Shown here piece after piece: positions 37,673 to 39,889 of a stretch of DNA of 64,000 bases. Location: NCBI RefSeq assembly GCF_018618475.1, contig NZ_JACSMD010000001.1, positions 868,001-932,000 on the forward strand, in the 5' to 3' direction. The notes beneath the pieces are model-generated. The model was not told where the DNA came from. It saw only the letters and a list, made by a program, of their open reading frames with translations, and made no database searches. The DNA comes from Exiguobacterium sp. s122. Lineage in GTDB: Bacteria > Bacillota > Bacilli > Exiguobacteriales > Exiguobacteriaceae. The first letter of the stretch is position 1; each line of letters starts with the position of its first letter. A program made the translations under genes and the position numbers.

Positions 37673-37713
37673 AAAAACTGCGATTCCTACGTGAAGGAAT
37701 CGCAGTTTTTTTA
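37673..37713. terminator. Terminator after pheT, shared with the opposite gene
   Basis: AAACTGCGATTCCT and AGGAATCGCAGTTT form a 14-bp stem with a six-base loop, then a T-run; A residues precede it, so it can also end the converging transcript. Confidence 0.92.
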
Positions 37714-38730
37714 TTGGACTTCGAGTGCCAAGTCGCCAAATTTCGTCCATCCGACGAGGCAGGTCACTTTATAAAGAAGGAACGTGATGACAGCGGGAAG
37801 CACGACGCCTGTACCGACGAAGATGGCGAACGCCTCGGCACCTTGAGCCGCCAAGATATTGAGCGGGGCGATCATCGAGTTCAAGCCGAGTCCGGCAATC
37901 TCGTATGGGACTTCGAGGGAGAACCAGAGCGTCGCAATCGGGGCACTGATCATGGCCGCGATAAAGGGTGGCATGACGACCCGAGGGTTTTTGACGACGT
38001 TCGGGAACTGGACTTTCGGTGTAACGAAGAACGATGCGACCAAACCGCCTGGATCGGTTTGACGATAAGCCATGAGCGTGAACCCGACGAACTGGGCTGT
38101 ACATCCAATCAAGGCGGCCGCACTCGCGACAGGGTCGAGTTGAAGCGCGATGGCGAGCGCAGCAGATGATGCCGGCGACATGAGCATGACACTAAAGACG
38201 AGCGCGATGACGAGTGATGTGGCAATCGGCGACGTGTTGACCGACGCGGTGATGCTTGCGCTGATGGTATTGATGAGCGGCGTCGTGACGGCCGCTGCAC
38301 CGACCCCGACGATCCCGCCACCAAGAACGGCGGAAACCGGGACGACCATCATGTCAAACTTTGTCTTTCCAAGAACGCGTTTCCCGATCCAAACAGCCGC
38401 AGCCGCTGCAATCAAAGCGCTGATCGGTTGACCCGGGACGAGGACGAGTCCACTCTCGGTCGGTTGGAGGGCAGCCCCGCCGACGGTTGCCGCAATCATC
38501 GAACTGAATAAAATGAGCGTGTTGCCACCGAGTTGATAGGCGACACCGGCGCCGAGCGCCGGGGCGAGAAGTGACTTGGCGACTTGCCCGATCGTGACGA
38601 GCATGTCGAGCCCCGCCATTTTCCCGATCGTCTCAATCAAGAGTCCGACCCCGAGCGTGACGAGGACGGCGCTTGCCATCCCGGCTGAAATTTTAATCAT
38701 TCGATCCATTGCGTACTGTTTCACTTCCAT
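37711..38730 (-). CDS. PTS EIIC-like integral membrane protein
   Basis: This is a polytopic membrane protein of 339 residues with about nine or ten hydrophobic segments, resembling the PTS_EIIC_2 family. Family-like features are KISAGMASAVLVTLGVGLLI at the start, ALGAGVAYQLGGNTLILFSS, and VTTPLINTISASI with GLNSMIAPLNIL later. No phosphorylation domain is attached and no other PTS gene is nearby, so sugar transport by phosphorylation is doubtful. The start is uncertain: ATGs at 38733 and 38730 stand close to GAGGAG. Expression is probably set by the leader-peptide attenuator upstream. Transport of an amino acid or related metabolite is an inference from that leader. Confidence 0.75.
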   Translation of the reverse strand: MEVKQYAMDRMIKISAGMASAVLVTLGVGLLIETIGKMAGLDMLVTIGQVAKSLLAPALGAGVAYQLGGNTLILFSSMIAATVGGAALQPTESGLVLVPGQPISALIAAAAAVWIGKRVLGKTKFDMMVVPVSAVLGGGIVGVGAAAVTTPLINTISASITASVNTSPIATSLVIALVFSVMLMSPASSAALAIALQLDPVASAAALIGCTAQFVGFTLMAYRQTDPGGLVASFFVTPKVQFPNVVKNPRVVMPPFIAAMISAPIATLWFSLEVPYEIAGLGLNSMIAPLNILAAQGAEAFAIFVGTGVVLPAVITFLLYKVTCLVGWTKFGDLALEVQ

Positions 38731-38754
38731 CATCTCCTCTGTCTGTTTTCCAAT

Positions 38755-38780
38755 AAAAAAACCTATCCGAATGGGATAGG
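38755..38780 (-). terminator. Attenuator terminator before the EIIC-like gene
   Basis: On the minus strand CCTATCC and GGATAGG (38780-38762) pair around five bases, followed by seven T. It lies in the leader 25 bases before the gene. AGGCGC (38805-38800) can pair with GCGCCT (38783-38778), which takes three bases of the terminator stem, so the two helices exclude each other. Confidence 0.8.
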
Positions 38781-38861
38781 CGCAAATGGTTCACGGTGAG
38801 CGCCTCGTCCGAATCCATCGAAACAAGGGCCCAAAAATTCGTCTCGGTTACGAGTCGATTT

Positions 38862-38915
38862 TCAGTCCCTTCGTCGAATAATAATCAGCAGGCCGTGTTG
38901 TGTCTGTGTATGCAT
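38862..38915 (-). CDS. Leader peptide (17 aa) of an attenuator
   Basis: The short reading frame encodes MHTQTQHGLLIIIRRRD and has a strong Shine-Dalgarno (GGAGGAG, nine bases before ATG). Five branched-chain codons (CTG CTG ATT ATT ATT) and three arginine codons (CGA CGA AGG) stand just before the stop. The Arg codons AAGGG can pair with CCCTT (38829-38825), and a stable hairpin (CTCG/CGAG, 38854-38843) and a terminator follow. This is the layout of ribosome-mediated attenuation, sensing Ile/Leu or Arg supply. It is too short for ordinary gene finding. Confidence 0.65.
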   Translation of the reverse strand: MHTQTQHGLLIIIRRRD

Positions 38916-38937
38916 GGCGTTTCGCTCCTCCGTTTTG

Positions 38938-38980
38938 CTAAGATTTGTCTTAGAGTAACATGACATTTTTCAATAATCAA
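38938..38980 (-). promoter_or_regulatory. Promoter of the attenuated leader, with inverted repeat
   Basis: On the minus strand TTGATT (38980-38975), 17 bases, TACTCT (38957-38952). The inverted repeat CTAAGA-N4-TCTTAG (38953-38938) overlaps the -10 and the expected start and may be an operator. Confidence 0.65.
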
Positions 38981-39023
38981 TATTTTCTGAAAATTTATCT
39001 GAAAAAAATTGGAACGATAAATA

Positions 39024-39076: not shown

Positions 39077-39889
39077 TTATGAGGTGCTGGCCGTAAGCAA
39101 GCCAACTTGTTCATCAATAAAATTCATCGAGACGGTGTTAAAGATATCCGGCTGATCGACGTTGACGACGTGACCAGAATCCTCGACGACATGAACGTTC
39201 GCCGTCGGTTGGTGTTTCGCCGTACGTTCGACAGCTTCGAGGAACATGTAATCCTCATCCCCCATCACATAAAGAATAGGGACGGCCGTTTGAATCGATG
39301 AGAAATGTCGGAGCAACGGATTCATGTTTTCAGTCATCTTGAACCATCGAATGAATTCACGTTGACACAGGTTAGCCGCGTCACGGACGAACATCATACG
39401 TGATTTCTTATGACGTTTTTTCGGCAATAAAATCCAGGCGAACAGTTGATAGAGCCACATATAAGGGACGAAGTTTTGCACGAGGCTACCGAGACGAATC
39501 AATAACGTCGAACGAACGTTAAATTTGACGATCGCGCCCCCGAGCACGACCGAGGCAATACGTTCCGGATGGTGTTCGAACATCGCTTGAATGACGATCG
39601 TCCCGAGCGATAGTCCGACCATATGACCTTTTTCGATGTTCAAGTGATCCATCACTTCGACCACGTCTTCAACCACGACGTCGAGCGTGTATGCGTTGAG
39701 CGGTTGCGTTAACGACTGCTCGGCATCATAAGACCCGCCGTGTCCACGTAAATCGAGCAACAGGACATTATATTTCTTTTTAAACGGTCGGATTTGACGA
39801 TACCAGTGAGACAGGCTCCCCCCGGCGCCATGAATGAAGATGACCCAAGGATGGTCGTCGCTTAATGTATACGTTTTATAATGCAACAT
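39077..39889 (-). CDS. Alpha/beta-fold hydrolase
   Basis: This is a 270-residue esterase/lipase-like protein. The start MLHYKTYTLSDDHPW follows GGAGGA by nine bases; an earlier in-frame start lacks a Shine-Dalgarno. The oxyanion-hole motif HGAGGSLSHW, the nucleophile elbow GLSLGT (Ser), a late Asp in MGDEDYMFLE and the His in EDSGHVVNVDQP complete the triad. DLRGHGGS is a further family motif. The 130-200 cap region is basic and hydrophobic (WLYQLFAWILLPKKRHKK). It has no signal peptide. The substrate is unknown; it lies between the EIIC-like gene and rnhC with no clear pathway link. Confidence 0.85.
   Translation of the reverse strand: MLHYKTYTLSDDHPWVIFIHGAGGSLSHWYRQIRPFKKKYNVLLLDLRGHGGSYDAEQSLTQPLNAYTLDVVVEDVVEVMDHLNIEKGHMVGLSLGTIVIQAMFEHHPERIASVVLGGAIVKFNVRSTLLIRLGSLVQNFVPYMWLYQLFAWILLPKKRHKKSRMMFVRDAANLCQREFIRWFKMTENMNPLLRHFSSIQTAVPILYVMGDEDYMFLEAVERTAKHQPTANVHVVEDSGHVVNVDQPDIFNTVSMNFIDEQVGLLTASTS

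Follow-up and report, generated by a model that had tools for sequence, protein, structure and literature searches.

Leader region upstream of a PTS_EIIC_2 gene

In the window, i.e. the whole stretch of 64,000 nucleotides from Exiguobacterium sp. s122 that was analyzed, a gene encoding a membrane protein of the PTS_EIIC_2 family (PF13303) lies on the minus strand. On its 5' side we identified a regulatory element that extends from a predicted CodY box through an intrinsic terminator (38755-38995, minus strand). The features are as follows:

38981..38995, minus: predicted CodY box AATTTTCAGAAAATA, with one mismatch to AATTTTCWGAAAATT, abutting the -35 element on its upstream side
38975..38980, minus: promoter -35 element TTGATT, separated by N17 from TACTCT, a pattern shared by 37/38 Exiguobacterium leaders
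38952..38960, minus: extended -10 element TGTTACTCT with a weak hexamer, in which TG precedes TACTCT
38923..38933, minus: Shine-Dalgarno site ACGGAGGAGCG of the leader frame
38862..38915, minus: leader peptide MHTQTQHGLLIIIRRRD plus stop, 17 codons, a frame kept in 52/52 leaders
38877..38891, minus: control codons Leu-Leu-Ile-Ile-Ile (CTG CTG ATT ATT ATT), assigned from conservation, codon use and folding at different ribosome positions
38859..38870, minus: segment 1 AGGGACTGAAAA, mostly invariant, pairs with segment 2
38839..38858, minus: inner hairpin that separates segments 1 and 2 (CTCG/CGAG), sequence varies by group
38819..38837, minus: segment 2 TTTTTGGGCCCTTGTTTCG, pairs with segment 1 or 3
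38797..38811, minus: segment 3 CGGACGAGGCGCTCA, alternative partner of segments 2 and 4 (AGGCGC at 38800-38805)
38778..38783, minus: segment 4 GCGCCT, partner of AGGCGC in segment 3 or else part of the terminator
38755..38780, minus: intrinsic terminator (4:5) CCTATCC-N5-GGATAGG-T7, from the terminator scan, stem conserved in the alignments
37711..38733, minus: PTS_EIIC_2 membrane protein, 340 aa (Pfam 1e-85), start at 38733

The promoter, Shine-Dalgarno site, 17-codon frame, hairpins and terminator had been listed in an original prediction made from the letters of the DNA, and all of them were found where it had placed them. The range of that prediction (38755-38980) ended just short of the CodY box, which was overlooked there; AATTTTCWGAAAATT is the CodY motif as quoted in the accessible part of PMC6123439.

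The -10 hexamer TACTCT agrees with TATAAT at 3 of 6 positions, and this promoter was absent from the promoter-scan output for the window. A -35 element of either TTGATT or TTGTTT with TGNTANNCT after it was observed in 37/38 Exiguobacterium leaders, the exception reading TAGATT. A CodY box with at most two mismatches was present in all 29 distinct upstream regions of sufficient length among the Exiguobacterium transporter leaders, as well as in four of the five brnQ leaders that were fetched (see below), the fifth having three mismatches. In Sporolactobacillus the match was weak, with two to four mismatches in 13/14 leaders scanned. These counts were made without L051-L053, whose upstream stretches are too short, and without L134, and L019 was merged with L018. 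By its box near the promoter, the gene in the window has the feature expected of a CodY regulon member; the assignment is weaker for Sporolactobacillus.

A conserved leader peptide

Leader frames were sought with a script that accepts ATG or GTG together with loose Shine-Dalgarno words. The 52 leaders comprised 33 Exiguobacterium transporter leaders, five brnQ leaders and 14 Sporolactobacillus leaders; of the 35 leader-bearing genomes, 33 contributed a transporter leader, i.e. all but G020 and G061. A start codon with a Shine-Dalgarno site, open into a Leu-Ile anchor, was present in 52/52 leaders and in either other frame in 0/52, and 5.2% of shuffled upstream stretches contained such a start. 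The N-termini of the peptides differ between leaders; nonetheless, the frame remains open.

The run of control codons was found throughout. Positions -8 to -5 read L-I-[IV]-[IL] in 23/23 distinct Exiguobacterium peptides, and Arg-Asp closes all 23, with Arg at -4 in seven of them and at -3 in two. The Sporolactobacillus peptides end in GLIRIILRLRT (13/14) or SLIRIILRLRT (1/14). As would be anticipated for control codons, the leader uses rare Leu codons: in the long frames of the window, CTG and CTA account for 7% and 4% of Leu. In Sporolactobacillus, a GGACT-like element that matches AGG GAC TGA of Exiguobacterium is located past the stop codon or shares the final base with it. Therefore, the invariant AGG GAC at the end of the frame is best explained as part of helix segment 1.

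Alternative RNA helices

The five segments form four helices, 1:2, 2:3, 3:4 and 4:5. The antiterminator (3:4) and the terminator (4:5) overlap at 38778-38780 and are thus mutually exclusive, which bears out the predicted alternative helices with shared bases. The CTCG/CGAG hairpin of that prediction is present as well, and is here corrected to a variable inner hairpin enclosed by helix 1:2.

Among 33 aligned Exiguobacterium leaders, helix 1:2 was paired in 97.9% of cells and helix 2:3 in 98.7%, with 16 cells of the latter changed on both sides. None of 500 shuffles reached the covariation score of 2:3, the strongest among the helices and one that the original prediction had not named. Helix 3:4 was paired in 93.1% of cells and showed a C-G to U-A exchange in 3/33 rows, all of them brnQ leaders. 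Covariation of 1:2 and 3:4 was no better than chance (their scores were reached in 353/500 and 103/500 shuffles, respectively) because most positions never vary. Support for these two helices comes instead from sliding the partner by one to three columns, which lowered pairing to at most 83% (1:2) and at most 57% (3:4); the structures have an advantage in this control, having been derived from these same sequences. In Sporolactobacillus (13 of 14 leaders, without L130) pairing of the same helices reached 100% of cells for 1:2 and for 2:3 and 98.9% for 3:4, partly with other bases, and hardly any covariation was seen within this set. The terminator scan gave seven sites, including the leader hairpin, compared with 4.7 +/- 2.3 in shuffles. 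Since the hairpin alone is not beyond chance, its conservation serves as the evidence. Overall, alignment with relatives showed that the Leu-Ile anchor, the frame and the antiterminator helix are conserved in Exiguobacterium and Sporolactobacillus.

RNA folding with the ribosome in place

Folding under alternative constraints, which had been suggested along with the prediction, showed that the window's leader switches from 1:2 plus 3:4 to 2:3 depending on the position of the ribosome. Helices 1:2 and 3:4 formed when Leu9 or Leu10 occupied the A site (5.9 and 5.6 pairs of 3:4), whereas Ile11 gave a mixed fold and Ile12 through Asp17 gave a fold dominated by 2:3 (13 to 14.6 pairs). With Arg14, Arg15 or Arg16 in the A site, 2:3 had 14.4 to 14.6 pairs and 3:4 almost none. 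When the ribosome was at the stop codon, 2:3 had 8.9 pairs versus 2.3 for 3:4; the 3:4 value at the stop is close to that at the first Ile (3.1). Therefore Leu and, to a lesser extent, the first Ile are expected to act as control codons, with stalling at Arg predicted to lead to termination.

Equilibrium folding over 48 leaders (L141 and L101 left out, identical sequences merged) gave a mixed picture, supportive of attenuation but not uniform. At the stop, 2:3 exceeded its value under Leu stalling in 42/48 leaders and fell below it in 2/48. Conversely, 3:4 was higher with Leu stalling than at the stop in 27/48 and lower in 5/48, and a group of four (L013-L016) showed a reversed 3:4 trend. In a set of 49 leaders (L141 left out, rows with identical results merged), folding before segment 4 is made and with the ribosome at the first Ile let 1:2 beat 2:3 in only 19/49, which means that the model depends on 1:2 forming first, i.e. 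in the order in which the RNA is transcribed. When no ribosome was placed, 1:2 formed in 46/49 leaders; in the window's leader, four 5' ends were chosen, of which three allowed 3:4 to form with 5.7 to 6.0 pairs and the fourth gave 1.2 pairs. With five segments and 3:4 as the antiterminator, an untranslated leader may read through, a prediction that we make with less certainty.

Distribution of the leader

By BLAST, leader DNA was found in 33/61 genomes, including the host genome itself. A covariance model (R1) built from 29 Exiguobacterium leaders, 28 of transporters and one of brnQ, detected the leader in 35/38 Exiguobacterium-family genomes. A transporter orthologue of at least 76% identity was present in 34/37 genomes of the family, G061 being outside that set, and G001, G003 and G004 had neither orthologue nor leader. 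Among named relatives, the closest to the window's transporter come from an Exiguobacterium MAG, with 99% identity, and from E. alkaliphilum, with 98%.

Scanning named genomes yielded 44 transporter loci, 22 in Exiguobacterium, 14 in Sporolactobacillus (57-66% protein identity) and eight in Listeria (about 45%). The leader was found at 14/14 Sporolactobacillus loci, all matched by R1 with E-values of 1e-7 to 1e-4 in 310 kb. Reciprocally, a second model (R2) built from 13 Sporolactobacillus leaders alone found the leader in 34/38 Exiguobacterium genomes (E 2e-5 to 0.015). No leader was seen at the eight Listeria loci or at a 66% homologue (L155) in G081, which belongs to another family; six of these nine loci were also searched with R1, and Listeria L148, L149 and L152 were inspected by eye only. 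Thus, the link between leader and transporter is not family-wide.

Several weaker class-wide matches were read individually. Those of R1 in G177, G178, G276 and G290 and an extra one in G030 contained no frame for a leader peptide. In G211, a terminator precedes ilvD by about 430 nt (E 0.08), which was taken as chance. Further weak R1 matches, with E-values of 0.2 to 1, fell in G032 and, twice, in G007. The R2 matches beyond the Exiguobacterium and Sporolactobacillus families were weak and mostly short; of the two that were read, the one in G114 was a terminator alone. At L217 (G081:C1:1235353-1235419, plus strand; R2 E 0.004), a short frame with SLIPIILITII enters a terminator, which may be chance. 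Downstream of it lies a frame that by eye resembles phosphoketolase, and the site is not near the 66% homologue of G081. In Sporolactobacillus shoreicorticis (L134, 2569-3000), about 280 extra bases separate leader and transporter, and this extra stretch contains a match to Bacillaceae-1 RNA (42.1 bits) on the opposite strand.

A second target, brnQ, and the apparent lack of branched-chain amino acid synthesis

The covariance model also found the same leader ahead of brnQ in 11/38 Exiguobacterium-family genomes. The brnQ leaders in G021 and G030 are the same as the transporter leader, and nine further genomes hold a more diverged copy, with peptides containing RLIVIKSRD or RLIVIRTRD. Even this substitution introduces Val, so that only branched-chain amino acids (BCAAs) occur at the anchor. 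Five of the 11 matches were followed up to the gene itself, and in the remaining six a BrnQ match begins 37 or 38 positions beyond the leader match. These BrnQ carriers, classical BCAA importers, share the leader of the window's transporter but belong to another protein family (PF05525 versus PF13303).

BrnQ (PF05525) was present in 38/38 genomes of the family. In the 19 genus-1 genomes, which each have one BrnQ, this gene had no attenuator match. At five genus-1 brnQ loci (L195, L196, L200, L203 and L204), a CodY-like box TTGTCAGAAAATTT was noticed just past the promoter.

IlvD was found in 0/38 Exiguobacterium-family genomes, with positive results for 14/14 controls. In the accessible parts of the respective papers, E. 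sibiricum is said to lack BCAA enzymes (PMC2615787), and BCAA auxotrophy is ascribed to E. chiriqhucha as to other members of its genus (PMC6331483). With no IlvD found and the genus called auxotrophic, a BCAA attenuator in these bacteria can hardly serve de novo synthesis, which leaves uptake or use.

The EIIC-like protein

The AlphaFold2 model of the transporter (pLDDT 74, pTM 0.70) has the EIIC fold, in agreement with the profile match to PF13303. The closest structure was bcMalT (Z 16.8, rmsd 3.9, 312 residues aligned), followed by the IIC domain of PtsG (Z 16.5), so the nearest folds are those of sugar transporters. A PDB sequence search returned nothing at E 1. No Pfam domain besides PF13303, hence no IIA or IIB domain, was found in the protein.

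Two paralogues of the transporter are present in the host genome, at G000:C1:832538-833488 (34%) and G000:C1:732083-732991 (26%), and neither has a match to the leader model. The neighbourhood of the Listeria homologues showed no clear link to BCAAs. In one Listeria locus (L147, noted together with L146), the homologue, at which no leader was seen, ends about 840 nt from the sRNA rli47, beyond a gene that by eye is GntR-like; rli47 is a repressor of ilvA.

Evaluation of alternative explanations

Here, we have high confidence that the attenuator is real, and Leu/Ile (BCAAs) as its signal is well supported, as had been predicted: the frame is conserved in all leaders along with helices that share bases, the L-I-[IV]-[IL] anchor is invariant in Exiguobacterium, and Leu9 or Leu10 in the A site yields the antiterminating fold. 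That a BCAA-sensing attenuator controls the transporter gene is therefore very likely. The prediction had further proposed that Arg codons stall the ribosome and change the fold. It is true that the window's leader has CGA CGA AGG and that AGG is the rarest Arg codon (1% of Arg in the window's long frames). However, the Arg run varies among Exiguobacterium peptides, the Sporolactobacillus counterpart of AGG GAC lies at or after the stop codon, and all three Arg positions (Arg14-Arg16) favor the terminating 2:3 helix. Arginine sensing was thus rejected as highly improbable. A ligand-binding riboswitch or T-box with an incidental short frame would also be a conserved structured leader with a terminator, and yet the frame is conserved as well as the RNA, staying open behind variable N-termini. 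No Rfam family was found at gathering score in the window, and no T-box was among the three Rfam matches in 11 homologue loci, which leaves this explanation equally improbable. It is scarcely credible that the hairpin is a mere terminator of the upstream abhydrolase gene accompanied by a chance short frame: although the hairpin count is not beyond chance, that gene ends at 39077, ahead of the conserved promoter, and the leader recurs in most genomes of the family and at a second target.

The substrate is a more difficult question. A real, BCAA-sensing attenuator could control an EIIC-like protein that imports a sugar, keto acid or peptide wanted in BCAA shortage. The fold, which is nearest to maltose and glucose EIIC, and the further homologues without a leader speak for this possibility, and CodY regulons contain many genes beyond amino acid uptake. 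On the other hand, BrnQ is the second target of the same leader in 11 genomes, the attenuator reads BCAA supply in a genus called BCAA-auxotrophic, and the protein has no detected IIA or IIB domain. We regard a different substrate as a real but lesser possibility. The original prediction named a BCAA, arginine or a precursor, and not a sugar; the brnQ leader, the CodY box and auxotrophy point to a BCAA, and the variable Arg run argues against arginine. From this regulation and auxotrophy, it appears somewhat probable that the EIIC-fold protein is a BCAA importer. The broader proposal is more tentative, with chances a little short of even: the PF13303 orthologues of Exiguobacterium and Sporolactobacillus may be importers of BCAAs, probably Leu, with an EIIC fold and without IIA/IIB, and the attenuator may be a new RNA family whose untranslated leader reads through.

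Regulatory model and comparison with known attenuators

We infer a model of which folding kinetics, CodY binding, the starvation response and the substrate form part. When BCAAs are plentiful, CodY would repress the promoter. In transcripts started despite this plenty, the ribosome would reach the stop codon and cover segment 1; 2:3 would then pair, leaving segment 4 free, and the 4:5 terminator would end transcription. When Leu or Ile is short, the ribosome would stall either at the Leu codons, which are the rare CTG, or at the first Ile codon, and segment 1 would stay free, so that 1:2 and then 3:4 could pair, the terminator would not form and the transporter would be made.

In enterobacterial leu, ilv and his attenuators, the position of the ribosome at control codons picks among nested helices; these systems differ from the window's leader in phylum and sequence and precede biosynthetic operons. 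Closer to Exiguobacterium, the Listeria Rli60 leader of ilvD (RF02414) likewise has a BCAA-coded peptide, a terminator/antiterminator and CodY above it, as described in the accessible text of PMC5864092. It differs in preceding ilv-leu, whereas the window's leader precedes transporters and has five segments with 3:4 as antiterminator. The best rli60 match across the host genome (G000) was exactly the window's leader (27.1 bits, E 0.24), and at this score, far below the gathering score of 60, it was not assigned to RF02414. Moreover, rli60 start-codon mutants had reduced ilvD transcription according to that part of PMC5864092, which is opposite to the read-through predicted here for an untranslated leader. 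The S. aureus ilvD attenuator also has an Ile/Leu codon run conserved in the genus, a terminator and CodY control, and differs in its 26 aa peptide, biosynthetic operon and other antiterminator (PMC5794164, accessible part). The likeness to these two systems means that the mechanism is already known. Accordingly, the earlier view that leader-peptide attenuation is uncommon in Bacillales, where T-boxes would usually do this job, needs correction in light of Rli60 and the S. aureus ilvD attenuator, and a review calls leader attenuation common for Gram-positive BCAA biosynthetic operons (PMC6123439, accessible part).

During these comparisons, we observed an Rli60-like leader upstream of ilvD in Sporolactobacillus G701 (L162, 132974-133137, plus strand), with the peptide MLFPFDSRELNILIITQGPGNR containing NILII. 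Its rli60 match (E 0.001) is under the Rfam gathering score, and it is probably a member of the rli60 kind outside Listeria. In Sporolactobacillus G698 (L165), we also noticed a leader-like stretch that encodes the peptide MSTPFKVRVLIIS and contains a hairpin with T behind it.

Our literature search, mostly short of full-text depth, turned up neither a report of a leader attenuator in Exiguobacterium nor one that links PF13303 with BCAAs. PMC6952197, the one paper found to name PF13303, does so in its accessible part only within Pfam counts, and PMC8632094 mentions neither Exiguobacterium nor Sporolactobacillus. What is probably novel is the use of transporters as attenuator targets, one of them with an EIIC fold, the cascade of 1:2, 2:3, 3:4 and 4:5, and a probable role for an uncharacterized family. 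The leader-peptide RNA element, which has no Rfam match at gathering score, is common to Exiguobacterium and Sporolactobacillus. In a lineage without BCAA synthesis, BCAA attenuation would act on importers, and a membrane family so far named only by its likeness to sugar permeases would gain a testable role.
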